NCBI GenBank assembly: GCA_028819575.1
Contig: JAPPLB010000186.1
Location: 1 to 44,474 of the forward strand
Direction: 5' to 3'
DNA length: 44,474 bases
Source: Bryobacterales bacterium
GTDB lineage: Bacteria; Acidobacteriota; Terriglobia; Bryobacterales; UBA6623
Shown here: positions 24,273 through 29,740 of the stretch, in pieces
Layout: every line of letters starts with the position of its first letter
Numbering within the stretch: position 1 is the first letter of the stretch
Notes under the pieces: generated by a model
What the model was told of the DNA's origin: nothing
The model's input: the letters and a program-made list of their open reading frames with translations, nothing else
Databases searched by the model: none
Program-made: the position numbers and the translations under genes

Positions 24273-24944
24273 ATGATCAAACTCAGAGACCTTGAGAAAT
24301 TCTATCTCAGCGGGTACGGCAAGACGTTCGTCCTGCGCCGGATCAACCTCGATATCAGCGAAGGCGAGTTCGTTACGATCATGGGGCCGTCAGGGGCGGG
24401 AAAGTCGACCTTGCTGGGCATCCTGGGCATGCTGGACGGCGACTTCGAGGGCGAGTTCCACTTTCTCGATCAACCCGTCCACAAGCTCAAGCCGCGCCAG
24501 CGGGTGGAACTCAACAAGCAGTACATCGGGTTCGTCTTCCAGAGCTATCATCTGCTCGACGACATGACGGTCTACGAGAACCTCGACCTGCCGCTCTCCT
24601 ACCGCAACGTCAGCCGCAAGGAGCGCCAGTCGATTGTCGCCGACGTGCTTGACCGCTTTCACATCGTCGCCAAGAAAGACCTTTTCCCGAATCAGCTCTC
24701 CGGCGGCCAGCAGCAACTCGTCGCCGTGGCGCGAGCCATCGTGGCCCGTCCTAAACTGATTCTGGCCGACGAGCCGACCGGCAACCTGCACTCCGCACAG
24801 GGCAAGGAAATCATGGAGTTGTTTAAGAAACTCAACGAGGAGGAGACCACGATCATCCAGGTCACGCACTCGGAAGACAACGCCGCGTACAGCGACCGCA
24901 TCATCAACCTGCGCGACGGTTGGGTTGTGGACGGAGAGGTTTAG
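24273..24944 (+). CDS. ABC transporter ATPase (MacB/LolD type), second copy
   Basis: 223 residues. Walker A GPSGAGKST (38-46), Q-loop in 'IGFVFQSYHLL', signature 'LSGGQQQLVAVARAI', Walker B 'LILADEPTG' and switch histidine in 'VTHSED'. The D-loop is 'NLHS' instead of the usual 'NLDS', a slightly unusual substitution. It belongs to the same class as the ATPase at 16298 but is clearly divergent from it, so the locus carries two ATPases and two permeases. It likely pairs with the permease just upstream. The response regulator follows 62 bases later. Confidence 0.93.
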   Translation: MIKLRDLEKFYLSGYGKTFVLRRINLDISEGEFVTIMGPSGAGKSTLLGILGMLDGDFEGEFHFLDQPVHKLKPRQRVELNKQYIGFVFQSYHLLDDMTVYENLDLPLSYRNVSRKERQSIVADVLDRFHIVAKKDLFPNQLSGGQQQLVAVARAIVARPKLILADEPTGNLHSAQGKEIMELFKKLNEEETTIIQVTHSEDNAAYSDRIINLRDGWVVDGEV

Positions 24945-25006
24945 TACCGGCTTGCCGTTCTTCGTTGCAGCGCCGCGCAATCGTCCCTGCATATCGCCGT
25001 ACCGCC

Positions 25007-26356
25007 ATGCCGAAAGTTCTCATCGCTGACGACCAACCGGACGTCCTCACGGCTTTGCGTCTCCTGCTCAAGGGAGAAGGCTACGAGACGAAAACGGCGG
25101 TCAAGCCCGCGCAGGTCATCGATTCGGTCTCCGCGGACGAGTTCGACGTCGCCCTGATCGACTTGAATTACACGCGGGATACGACCTCGGGACAAGAGGG
25201 ACTTGACCTGCTGCCACAGCTTCGGGCGATCGATTCCACTCTGCCCGTGGTGGTGATGACCGCCTGGGGAAGCGTCGATCTCGCCGTGGAGGCGATGCGC
25301 CGCGGCGCCCGCGATTTCGTACAGAAGCCATGGGACAACACGCGGCTCTTGAGCATCGTCCGCGCACAGGCCGAACTGGCGCGGGCGCTCCGGAGCGAAC
25401 GCCGCCTGCGAGTGGAGAACGAAATCCTGCGCGGCGGCGGTCTGCCGACCCTCATCGCGGAATCGGCCGTGATGAAGCCCGTCCTGGACATGATCGCTCA
25501 GGTCGGCCCATCCGACGCCAACGTGCTCATCACTGGCGAGCACGGCACGGGCAAGGAAGTCGTCGCGCAGACCCTGCACCAGATCTCGCCGCGCGCCGGG
25601 AACGCCATGATTTCCGTCAACGTCGGCGGTCTGGCTGAGGGAGTGTTCGAAAGCGAGATCTTCGGACATACGAGAGGCGCGTTTACCGGCGCGGCATCGG
25701 ACCGCATCGGCCGCTTCGAGCTGGCCCACCGCGGAACGTTGTTTCTCGATGAAATCGCCAATATCACTCCGGATCGGCAGGCGCGTCTGCTGCGCGTTCT
25801 CGAGACCGGTGAAGTCGAGCGCGTCGGCTCATCGAAGACCCGCAAGGTTGACGTGCGGGTCCTGTCAGCGACCAACGCGGACCTGCGCCTTGAAGTCGAG
25901 CAAGGCAGGTTTCGCGAGGATCTGCTGTTCCGGCTGAACATGGTGGAAATCCATCTGCCACCGCTACGGGAGCGACCGGACGACATCCCCGCGCTTGCCG
26001 CGCACTTTCTCGAGACGGCCAGAAGTCGCTACGGCAAGCGGCCGGAGGGATTCGAGCCGGCGGCGATGGATTCGCTGCTACGGCATCCCTGGCCGGGCAA
26101 TGTGCGCGAATTGAATCACGTCGTCCAGAGGGGCGTGCTGATGGCAAAGGGCGAGCAGGTGACCGAAGCGGACCTGGGCCTTGCCGCTCCCGTTTCCGGC
26201 GCTCCCAGGCTGGAGGACATGAGTCTGGAAGAGGTCGAGCGACACCTCATCAAGAAGACGCTCGAGAGATGCAACGGCAGCGTCAGCGACGCGGCGAAGG
26301 AGCTGGGCCTGAGCCGCAGCGCCATGTACCGGCGGCTGCAAAAACACGGCCTTTAG
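25007..26356 (+). CDS. Sigma-54-dependent response regulator (NtrC family)
   Basis: 449 residues from ATG 25007. Receiver domain with acidic pair 'ADDQPD' and phospho-acceptor D52 in 'VALIDLNY'. The sequence after it ('TRDTTSGQEGLDLL') has a small insertion relative to common receivers. The AAA+ domain has Walker A GEHGTGKE (177-184) and an intact GAFTGA loop (224-229), so it can contact sigma-54. Walker B is 'GTLFLDEIANI'. The C-terminal Fis-type helix-turn-helix is 'VSDAAKELGLSRSAMYRRLQKHGL'. With the following kinase it probably activates the upstream export genes from a -24/-12 promoter (inference). Confidence 0.94.
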   Translation: MPKVLIADDQPDVLTALRLLLKGEGYETKTAVKPAQVIDSVSADEFDVALIDLNYTRDTTSGQEGLDLLPQLRAIDSTLPVVVMTAWGSVDLAVEAMRRGARDFVQKPWDNTRLLSIVRAQAELARALRSERRLRVENEILRGGGLPTLIAESAVMKPVLDMIAQVGPSDANVLITGEHGTGKEVVAQTLHQISPRAGNAMISVNVGGLAEGVFESEIFGHTRGAFTGAASDRIGRFELAHRGTLFLDEIANITPDRQARLLRVLETGEVERVGSSKTRKVDVRVLSATNADLRLEVEQGRFREDLLFRLNMVEIHLPPLRERPDDIPALAAHFLETARSRYGKRPEGFEPAAMDSLLRHPWPGNVRELNHVVQRGVLMAKGEQVTEADLGLAAPVSGAPRLEDMSLEEVERHLIKKTLERCNGSVSDAAKELGLSRSAMYRRLQKHGL

Positions 26357-26375
26357 GCGCAAGGAAGCGAGTCTC

Positions 26376-27743
26376 GTGCTGTTCCATCGCAATGATCCGA
26401 AGGCGCCGCCGCGGCATGAGCGGCGCGTGCTCGTCTATGCGCTCCTGGCGGGGTTGCCGGCCGTGGCCCTTTCGACCGCGCTGCTGTTCGCCGGCGAGTA
26501 CAGCGACAAGACCCGCTGGACGCTGCTGATTCTCGTGGCGGCGGCGTGGATCGGGTTTTCTCTCGCCGTACGTCAGCAAGTCGTGTTTCCGTTGCGAACG
26601 CTTTCGAATCTGCTGGCGGCCTTGCGCGAGGGCGACTATTCGTTGCGAGCCCGAGTTGCGAAGGAAGACGTGCTGGGCGAAGTGATGAGTGAAGTGAACC
26701 TGATGGGGCAGATGCTTCGGGAGCAGCGCCTCAGCGCGCTCGAAGCCACGAACCTGCTCCAGAAAGTGATGCAGGAAATCAACGTGGCGGTCTTCGCTTT
26801 CGATGAAGAGAACCGCTTGCGCCTGGTTAATCACGCAGGGACGAAACTCCTGGGAGCGCACGAGAAACGCCTGCTGGGCCGCACCGCCGGAGAACTTGAT
26901 CTGATGGATTGCCTCGCCAAGAACGCGCCGCGGACTCTACAGAAGTCGTTCGCCGGCGGGTCCGGGCGCTGGGGAATCGCTTGCACCGGGTTTCGTGAGC
27001 AAGGCGTGCCGCATCGATTGCTTGTGCTGACGGACCTGACGCTCGAGCTGCGGGAAGAAGAACTACAGGCCTGGCAGCGGTTGGTCCGTGTTCTGAGCCA
27101 TGAGCTCAACAATTCTCTGGCGCCGATCAAATCGATCGCCGGCAGTCTGCGGTCTCTTCTGCGCCGGCCGGCATCCGACCCCGATTGGCGACACGACATG
27201 GAGCAGGGACTTGGCGCCATCGGGTCGCGCGCCGAGGCTCTCGGCCGCTTCACCAGCGCCTACGCCCGGCTTGCCAAGCTTCCACCGCCGACCCTTGAAC
27301 CGGTAAACCTTCGCGATTGTGTCGAGAGGGTCGCCGAGATCGAGCGAACACCCGAGCTTCAGATCGAAGCAGGACCCGACCTGATGGTCGACGCCGATGC
27401 GGCGCAGCTCGAACAGTTGCTCATCAACCTCGTTCAGAACGCCGCCGAGGCTTCGGACCAGACGGGTGGGCGCATTGGGATCAGGTGGAGCCGAAATGGA
27501 AAGGCGGCCTGCATCGACGTGCTGGATGAAGGTCCGGGACTATCGAGCGATGCGAACCTGTTTGTGCCTTTCTTTACGACCAAGCCTCAAGGAACGGGCA
27601 TCGGGCTCGTGCTTTCCCGCAAGATCGCCGAGAACCACGGCGGCGGGCTGACGCTCCGCAACCGCGATGATCGGCCGGGCTGCATCGCCCGACTCGAGTT
27701 GCCGCTCCGCTCGGGTCATGACCAAGAGCCGGCCGGCGTGTAA
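26376..27743 (+). CDS. Membrane sensor histidine kinase (NtrY/NtrB-like)
   Basis: 455 residues; GTG start with AAGGAA nine bases upstream. Two membrane helices (about 18-40 and 47-66) with almost no periplasmic loop, then HAMP (about 67-118). A PAS-like region ('LLQKVMQEINVAVFAFDEENRLRLVNHAG') follows, then a HisKA with H242 in 'VLSHELNNSLAPI' and HATPase with 'NLVQNAAEA', 'DEGPGL' and 'GTGIGLVLSRKI'. The short loop suggests that it senses a signal in the membrane or cytoplasm rather than a periplasmic ligand. It directly follows its cognate NtrC-type regulator by 20 bases. Confidence 0.94.
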   Translation: MLFHRNDPKAPPRHERRVLVYALLAGLPAVALSTALLFAGEYSDKTRWTLLILVAAAWIGFSLAVRQQVVFPLRTLSNLLAALREGDYSLRARVAKEDVLGEVMSEVNLMGQMLREQRLSALEATNLLQKVMQEINVAVFAFDEENRLRLVNHAGTKLLGAHEKRLLGRTAGELDLMDCLAKNAPRTLQKSFAGGSGRWGIACTGFREQGVPHRLLVLTDLTLELREEELQAWQRLVRVLSHELNNSLAPIKSIAGSLRSLLRRPASDPDWRHDMEQGLGAIGSRAEALGRFTSAYARLAKLPPPTLEPVNLRDCVERVAEIERTPELQIEAGPDLMVDADAAQLEQLLINLVQNAAEASDQTGGRIGIRWSRNGKAACIDVLDEGPGLSSDANLFVPFFTTKPQGTGIGLVLSRKIAENHGGGLTLRNRDDRPGCIARLELPLRSGHDQEPAGV

Positions 27744-27794: not shown

Positions 27795-29468
27795 TCAGCG
27801 TGCGGCTCGGATCTCGCCGGGGGTCAGGAAGCCGTCGCCGTCGGCGTCCATCGCATCGAAGCGCCGTTCGAGCTGAGCCGGCGCCTCCTCTCGGCTGATT
27901 TTGCCGTCGCCGTCGCCGTCAGCGCGCATCATCCTTGCCGCGCGGCCGCCGCCCCCGCGTCCGCCCATCCGCCCGCGCAGCGCAGCGAGCTCCTGTTCGT
28001 CCAGGAGCCCGTCCCCATCGGTATCGAACTGTTCGAAGCGCTCCTGCAAACGCGGTGGCACCTCATCGATGCTCAGCTTGCCGTCGCCGTCGGCATCGCG
28101 CTGCATCCAGGCGCCGCGGCCTCGGCGCGAGGTTGCGCGCTGCATCATGGTCTCGATCTCGGAGGGTTCGACGTAGCCGTCGCCATTCTCGTCCATGCGG
28201 TCGAACCGTTGGCGCATCGGCTCGGGGAGCTCCTCCGGTGCGAGGCGGTCGTCGCCGTCGGCGTCCATCGCAAGCAGACGCTCGATCATTCCCTCCGGGT
28301 TGCCGAAGAAGCCCGGTCCCAGCGGCCCTCCTCCGCTGCCGGGCCGGCCGCCACGCCCGCGGCGGGGGCCGTCGCTGTTGAAGTCCATGCGGCGCGAGAC
28401 GACCCGGCCGGCGTCGCGGTTCACATTCCAGGAAATCAGATACTCCTGGGTGACCGGCCGGCACCACTGCTTGGTGCAAGCGAAGTACCGGACCTTCAGT
28501 CCGAGCGGCTCACGCGCTTCGTCGAGCTTCACATCAACCAGAAACTCGCGCGGGTCGGCGTCGGCGTCCTGTTTCACATCCGGCCCCTTCATTCTTGTCG
28601 GAGAAATCCTGATGCCTTCCGGCGGCGTCAGCTCGATATCCATCGCCGGCGCACGGTTGTTCCAATACACGCCGTGGATCGGATCCGGCAGGAAGGCCAG
28701 GTAGAGCTTCCCTTCCCCGGCGCTCAACAGCTTCCGCTCGGCTTCGGCGCGCAGTTTCGCGTAGAACGGATCGCCAGTCTTCTCGAACCGCGGTTCGGAC
28801 CGCAATGTGCGGTAGAACCCTTGCTTCCGGATGCGCGGAACCACCCCGGTCGGCGCATGCTCCGGCGGGGGCTTGATCTTCATGTTCAGTTCCGCAACCT
28901 CAGTCGGGTTCTCGACAGGCCCGACGAATTCCTCGAGATCTTTCCGGAGCTGCGACGGATTGCTCCACGCGCGCACGCGCAGAACCTTGCCCTCGGGGTC
29001 GAGAAGATACTCGGAATTCGGCCGGTTCCCGATGGCGTGCTTGAGATCGTTCGTCATGGTATCGGCGATCCAGGGAATCTCCGATCCCAAGGTGCGCTTC
29101 GCCTCCTCGATGTGCGCCAGACGCTCTTCGAGCGTCACCGGATTGACGTAGCCGTTCAACTCCGGGTGCGCCAACGCCTTGTACAGATAGACGAACCTCA
29201 CACCTTTCGGCGAATAATCTCGATAGATGGTCTCCAACCTGGAGACGTTGCGGATGAACGGCGGTCAAGTCAAACAGCCGTTGACGATGACCGTGTACTT
29301 GCCCTTGAGGCTGCGTGTGTTGAGCCTTTTGCCCGCGGCATCGCGGACGTCGATTTCCGGGAACGGGTCTCCCGGGGCCAGCGGCATCGGCCCGCGATTC
29401 TGGGCGGCCCCCGGCGTGGCCGACAACAGCATTCCCAGTGTGAGCGCCGCGAAGTGAGAAGGTTTCAT
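27795..29468 (-). CDS. Secreted deiodinase-like selenoprotein with EF-hand tail (in-frame TGA read as Sec)
   Basis: One frame of 558 codons with a single internal TGA at 29267-29265 (codon 68). Residues 1-23 form a signal peptide ending in A-A-Q. The region around the TGA reads V-N-G-C65-L-T-U68-P-P-F, the CxxU site of iodothyronine deiodinases (vertebrate enzymes have G-S-C-T-U-P-P-F). Downstream family features include 'YLYKALAHPE' (animal enzymes: 'YIEEAHPSDGW') and 'WIADTM' before a strand-rich end. Residues ~190-360 contain C331 and C336 in 'YFACTKQWCRP', resembling the DsbD-alpha/DsbC-like domain. Residues ~402-557 hold six EF-hand loops starting near 402, 426, 458, 482, 517 and 541 (e.g. 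DADGDGKLSIDE), in three pairs. Likely an extracytoplasmic thiol/selenol redox enzyme; true deiodination is unproven. Reading it as two ORFs or a nonsense mutation is less likely because the TGA falls on the catalytic position and a SECIS hairpin follows. Confidence 0.85.
29230..29246 (-). promoter_or_regulatory. Bacterial SECIS-like hairpin after the in-frame TGA
   Basis: On the mRNA strand, GUCUCC-AGGUU-GGAGAC: a perfect 6-bp stem with a 5-base loop, beginning 18 bases after the UGA, so the loop is 24 bases downstream. Bacterial SECIS elements lie within the coding region just after the UGA and need a G in the first two loop positions. Here the loop begins A-G-G-U, like the AGGUCU loop of E. 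coli fdhF. SelB bound there would deliver Sec-tRNA. Confidence 0.78.
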
Positions 29469-29740
29469 CTTTGCGTGTGACCTCTCCCTTCTTGATAGCA
29501 CCCTCTCGCCGTCTTGGTTGTTAAACGTAGGTAAATTCCCCTAGTTTGCTGCGAAAGCACCCGGATTGGGGCTGGGAAGGAGGTCTCTTGCCGAGCTAAT
29601 AGGAGTCTTCCGGCAACTTTTTCTGCTTCACAGCATCCATGATCCTGCGCTGAATCCGGCCTGGAAACTCGCCCCGATAGGTTAAGCAACACCCGCGGAA
29701 TGCTCCGAGGACAGACCACAGGGCTCCAGATGGACATGGC

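Follow-up and report, generated by a model that had tools for sequence, protein, structure and literature searches.

Deiodinase-like selenoproteins have been known in bacteria since 2005, when both Sec and Cys forms were described from the Sargasso Sea (PMC1088965). They were listed again in the GOS data in 2008 (PMC2398784) and in a 2026 review, where their motif is given as UxxC (PMC13188914). In 2021 a fusion of a deiodinase-like protein with EF-hands (PF13499) was reported from GOS data (PMC9402790, Figure 2B), as was a fusion of PF11412 with a Prx-like U/CxxC protein (PMC9402790, Figure 2D).

The gene described here lies in a stretch of 44,474 nucleotides of DNA from an Acidobacteriota genome (the window, i.e. 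the whole stretch that was analyzed), and its product is of this recognized kind of bacterial selenoprotein, known since 2005 and as an EF-hand fusion since 2021. In common with the published bacterial proteins, it has a Trx-type fold, the T-Sec-P-P-F sequence, a His-Pro segment and the bacterial SECIS position, and Sec and Cys forms occur in both. The window family, unlike the published type, has a CxxU site, no relay Glu, a DsbD_N-like domain and often EF-hands. Genomes of the same order were also seen to encode six deiodinase-like proteins of shorter length, in which GSYT-TGA-PPF is combined with EAHPTDGW-like segments; the two that were tested scored 103-106 bits, above the Pfam T4_deiodinase cut-off, whereas the window family fell below it.

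The reading frame and its in-frame TGA

We observed that the minus-strand frame 29468..27795 begins with MKPSHFAAL (read from the sequence) and contains only two TGA codons, the terminal one and codon 68, which stands in the context V-N-G-C-L-T-TGA-P-P-F and is followed by 489 sense codons.

27795..29468, minus strand: complete selenoprotein gene (557 residues, U68, stop TGA 27797-27795)
29265..29267, minus strand: UGA codon, read almost certainly as selenocysteine 68 (Sec machinery, homologue comparison, selA association)
29481..29490, minus strand: AAGGGAGAGG, a possible Shine-Dalgarno sequence lying 12 nt upstream of the ATG (read directly)
29400..29468, minus strand: signal peptide-like N-terminus, residues 1-23 (MKPSHFAALTLGMLLSATPGAAQ), suggested by its hydrophobic stretch

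A preliminary description of this DNA had named the TGA at 29267-29265 as the sole interruption of a long open frame, which the frame read confirmed exactly. The 490-codon continuation that it gave matches our count, and the segment ALAHPELNGY that it placed downstream is present in the frame. Its expectation that automatic annotation would break the gene is also realistic, since the ORF listing gives only a headless 480-aa piece with a TTG start (27795-29237).

The TGA was found at the same column in 10/10 close relatives from other genomes (those readable across the site, among the 61 nearest genomes). Compared with a sibling of 91% identity, pN/pS was 0.22 upstream and 0.22 downstream of the TGA, indicating that purifying selection acts on either side of it. 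As the column is conserved in the ten relatives and selection is seen on both sides, the TGA is not a product of chance or of an assembly error.

A scan for promoters and terminators gave no signal above chance. An ABC-transporter ATPase, an NtrC-type response regulator and a histidine kinase (named by eye) lie in a row on the plus strand at 24273-27743, convergent with the selenoprotein gene. When 25 related loci were compared with the window, the only neighbors recurring outside the close Bryobacterales group were sulfatases and TonB-type receptors, at variable distance, and we claim no operon partner from this comparison.

Evidence for decoding of the TGA as selenocysteine

The host genome (5.37 Mb, 98.7% complete) encodes a tRNA-Sec (79 bits, anticodon TCA), SelB (357 bits), SelA (544 bits) and SelD (321 bits). 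A scan of a species-genome collection gave 29 loci, in Bryobacterales, other Acidobacteriota, Planctomycetota, Verrucomicrobiota, Kiritimatiellales and Cytophagales. Wherever the column could be read it was TGA, except for Cys in five loci and Glu in one degenerate member, and in a phylum survey of 396 genomes every match covering the column had TGA. The gene thus shows the pattern of a bacterial selenoprotein, in which a UGA within the frame occupies a conserved redox position that is Cys in some homologues.

We further examined the association of the column with selA. SelA was over the cut-off in 16/16 tested TGA genomes and in 0/5 Cys genomes; it was also below the cut-off in the Glu genome and in the genome of a member whose column is not covered. 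Fisher's exact test (16/0 vs 0/6, with the Glu genome included) gave 1.3e-5, kinship being ignored. A tRNA-Sec above 60 bits was found in 13/16 TGA genomes, the three exceptions being draft assemblies, and in none of the others.

Immediately beyond the codon we observed a hairpin:

29229..29247, minus strand: SECIS-like hairpin, numbered from the T of the TGA, with a stem of nt 21-27/33-39 around the loop AGGTT (nt 28-32)

The sequence GUCUCC-AGGUU-GGAGAC spans nt 22-38 counted from the start of the UGA. Each of the 27 distinct TGA sequences forms 5-6 of the 6 pairs, compared with 1-3 in the Cys homologues. At pair 21-39, 8 distinct sequences have C-G and 6 have G-C, and pair 24-36 shows a single exchange of C-G to U-A. 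The hairpin lies just 3' of the UGA and its small apical loop contains a G, as described for the bSECIS element (PMC1088965). With synonymous-codon shuffles, the z-scores of the TGA loci were mostly negative, many of them weak, and the energy test was weak for any single sequence. The DNA conservation of the region is partly due to the conserved protein motif V-P-S/R-L-E. Since many of the shuffle z-scores are weak, we base the case for the hairpin on its position, its covariation and the contrast with the Cys homologues more than on energy alone. Comparison strongly supports a decoding step in which this hairpin would guide SelB to deliver Sec-tRNA-Sec at codon 68.

Reassignment of TGA to Trp was rejected, since the gene itself ends in TGA, the relatives carry no in-frame TGA at any other column, the homologues have Cys, and the genome has a tRNA-Sec. 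We conclude that the in-frame TGA is almost certainly read as selenocysteine. The preliminary description had proposed this reading from the sequence. Of what it had suggested looking for, selA, selB, selC (the tRNA-Sec) and selD were all found, and the column is Sec (TGA) or Cys apart from the one Glu member; the TGT or TGC that it had named as counting against selenocysteine is not what was seen, many independent assemblies showing TGA.

The catalytic domain and its likely chemistry

28914..29381, minus strand: deiodinase-type thioredoxin-fold domain, residues 30-185 (AlphaFold2 with structure and profile comparison)
29265..29276, minus strand: active site C65-L-T-U68 (CxxU)
29163..29168, minus strand: H101-P102, which align with His-Pro in the EAHPSDGW segment of deiodinases

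The AlphaFold2 model of residues 24-366 had a mean pLDDT of 89.7. Its best match among solved structures was the core of mouse Dio2 (Z 20.2, rmsd 1.9, 158 aligned), followed by Dio3 (Z 18.9), and the family profile likewise found Dio3 first among PDB sequences (E 1e-4). The bacterial thiol-disulfide oxidoreductases ResA/DsbE gave Z values of about 17 and lower. In the alignment with Dio3, Thr67, Sec68, Tyr96 and His101 fall on active-site residues of the deiodinase. The NCBIfam 'deiodinase family protein' model matched 24/24 members, with the window protein far below the cut-off. With Pfam T4_deiodinase (PF00837) the window protein reached 14.6-15.9 bits against a gathering score of 27, and another member reached 26.3.

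The proton relay described around the Sec of deiodinases consists of Ser, Thr, Tyr, Glu and His (PMC11592359). This relay is incomplete here, as in 24/24 members the Glu is replaced by Leu99 and the Ser of GSCTU by Cys65. The term 'deiodinase-like' used in the preliminary description thus holds for the fold and superfamily, given the Dio2 and Dio3 matches, but not in the sense of an iodothyronine deiodinase, given the sub-gathering Pfam score, Leu99 and the CxxU site. Of the families it had suggested searching, T4_deiodinase stayed below its gathering score, while AhpC-TSA was matched, along with Redoxin, in 23/24 members. Because the site is CxxU in the Sec forms and CxxC in the Cys homologues, thiol-disulfide chemistry fits better than deiodination. 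The best reading is that the protein would be a thioredoxin-type oxidoreductase on a deiodinase-type fold and not an iodothyronine deiodinase.

The AhpC-TSA and Redoxin matches, the peroxiredoxin structures among the structural matches (Z about 15-16), and the presence in the same genome of a Prx-like protein of UxxC type joined to a DsbD_N-like domain are what a mainly peroxidatic, peroxiredoxin-like enzyme would lead one to expect. Sec68 would then attack peroxides, and Cys65 or the cysteines of the DsbD_N-like domain would resolve the selenenic acid. This is unlikely, as the deiodinase and ResA/DsbE structures outscore the peroxiredoxins, and the site is GCLTUPPF and not the PxxxTxxU of peroxiredoxins (motif, PMC13188914). 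The nearness of the catalytic fold to Dio2 and Dio3, and the Thr-Sec-Pro-Pro-Phe, Tyr96 and His101 in common with them, could also suggest an enzyme that reductively dehalogenates phenolic compounds carrying iodine or bromine, i.e. a functional counterpart of the deiodinases. The replacement of the relay Glu and of the Ser in every member makes this very improbable; the CxxU/CxxC site points to disulfide chemistry instead, and dehalogenation-related neighbor genes were not recurrent in the 25 related loci and the window. Least credible of all, to the point of being negligible, is that the TGA truly ends translation, or arose by misassembly or pseudogene decay, so that the gene would yield a short peptide, perhaps with a second gene downstream: the 480-aa frame with its TTG start is available, but 27 distinct sequences, drawn from several phyla, have TGA at this column, TGA is linked to the presence of selA, selection is purifying on either side, and a protein made from the downstream frame by itself would be missing its export signal and half of the thioredoxin fold.

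The DsbD_N-like domain and the EF-hands

28413..28784, minus strand: predicted DsbD_N-like beta-sandwich domain, residues 229-352
28461..28478, minus strand: Cys pair C331...C336 (YFAC-TKQW-CRPVTQ)
27813..28265, minus strand: six EF-hand loops (first residues 402, 426, 458, 482, 517 and 541)

These two parts go beyond what the preliminary description had observed. The stretch 195-352, when folded alone, gave a pLDDT of 91.8 and mainly beta strands. DsbD_N (PF11412) was the sole Pfam family matched by residues 229-352, at 18.5 bits (E 0.0022) against a cut-off of 25 bits for the window protein, and at E<=1 in 8/23 members (best 1.9e-5). Profile comparison by hhalign with the genome's own DsbD_N domains gave 90% probability, with C331 and C336 aligned to the Cys pairs at the domain end. 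The structural match to nDsbD covered 100 aligned residues with rmsd 3.4 and Z 7.1, which is below the Z of about 8 for adaptin ears, and a profile search of the domain against PDB sequences gave nothing credible. Both cysteines are invariant in the 24-row alignment. The Glu member (L075, 6001-6987, Kiritimatiellales) has also lost both cysteines of the DsbD_N-like domain; the loss of Sec and Cys pair together, seen in this one genome, is what redox coupling would predict, and the protein is perhaps a non-redox descendant.

The host carries a second selenoprotein candidate (contig C16, near 48057-48398, minus strand), which is peroxiredoxin-like and of UxxC type ('...FHRSADW-TGA-PFCKGQL...'). 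It is fused to a DsbD_N-like domain ending FHYQACDDKVCYLPQQ, and matches the Prx-like/PF11412 fusion reported in PMC9402790.

The EF-hands scored 79.6 bits against a Pfam cut-off of 25. Their six canonical 12-residue loops (residues 402-552) form three pairs, with exactly 12 residues between the members of a pair. EF-hands are present in 13/24 members, and since Sec and Cys forms have them alike, they appear to be a variable accessory. We also evaluated lanmodulin, a small protein with loops 12-13 residues apart, one or more of which have Pro at position 2 (PMC10232371). It was rejected, as the window protein has no Pro at position 2, is large and multidomain, and scored 64 bits with NCBIfam LanM against a cut-off of 135. 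The NCBIfam match to XopAW was general EF-hand similarity below the cut-off.

Proposed function

The best explanation of these observations is an exported selenoprotein, as judged from the sequence, and the enzyme probably acts as a thiol/selenol oxidoreductase. The Cys65-x-x-Sec68 site of the thioredoxin-fold domain would serve to reduce a substrate in the envelope, for instance a disulfide. The DsbD_N-like domain would be a built-in redox partner, Cys331 and Cys336 exchanging electrons with the Cys-Sec site; the architecture and the joint loss of redox residues tip the balance slightly towards direct transfer between the two modules. The C-terminal EF-hands may bind Ca2+ and stabilize or regulate the protein outside the cytoplasm. 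We give this reading as a whole (an exported Sec enzyme of three modules with a redox partner and Ca2+-binding EF-hands) a probability of roughly 0.8.

A metal-gated form of the exported selenoenzyme, in which the Cys-Sec site would draw its electrons from a DsbD-alpha-like Cys pair, with the EF-hands as the switch of the activity, would be a long shot. The gating ion could even be a lanthanide instead of calcium, which is conceivable because the three loop pairs show lanmodulin-like 12-residue spacing (PMC10232371); no loop has the lanmodulin proline.

The family matters in that standard gene calling breaks it at its active site across several phyla, and its first two domains reach no Pfam or NCBIfam cut-off. 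As a bacterial relative of the deiodinase core in which Sec and Cys are interchangeable, fused to a likely redox partner, it is useful for asking how thiol-disulfide exchange gave rise to deiodinase chemistry. Its Sec lineages, which have selA, can be set against matched Cys lineages that lack it, a natural test of the benefit of selenium to the enzyme.

Comparison with known systems

The core of the window protein shares with Dio2/Dio3 the fold, the Sec position, Thr-Sec-Pro-Pro-Phe and the active-site Tyr and His. It differs in having about 20% identity, Leu for the relay Glu, and Cys at -3, not -2. It is predicted to be exported with extra domains, whereas the vertebrate deiodinases are membrane-anchored. 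Like the DsbD N-terminal domain (PF11412), the second domain is probably a beta-sandwich and has a Cys...Cys pair in the corresponding position, but its score is sub-gathering, it is fused behind a Sec-Trx domain, and the protein is without the DsbD membrane domain.

The Prx-like/PF11412 fusion of PMC9402790 resembles the window protein in joining a selenocysteine redoxin to a DsbD_N-type domain; its redoxin is of the UxxC peroxiredoxin type, without EF-hands, whereas that of the window protein is of the deiodinase type. The deiodinase-like/EF-hand fusion of the same report joins a deiodinase-like selenoprotein to EF-hands, as here, and has further conserved Cys. Its description in the text mentions neither a DsbD_N-like middle domain nor a CxxU motif nor a host group. 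The window gene most likely belongs to that fusion or is a sister to it, and the two may be one and the same family. Literature searches for selenoprotein with Acidobacteria and deiodinase, or with EF-hand and Planctomycetes, found no paper by those topics. The present analysis adds the architecture of three modules, the CxxU motif, the case of one lineage that has lost its redox residues together, the spread across phyla and the association with selA.
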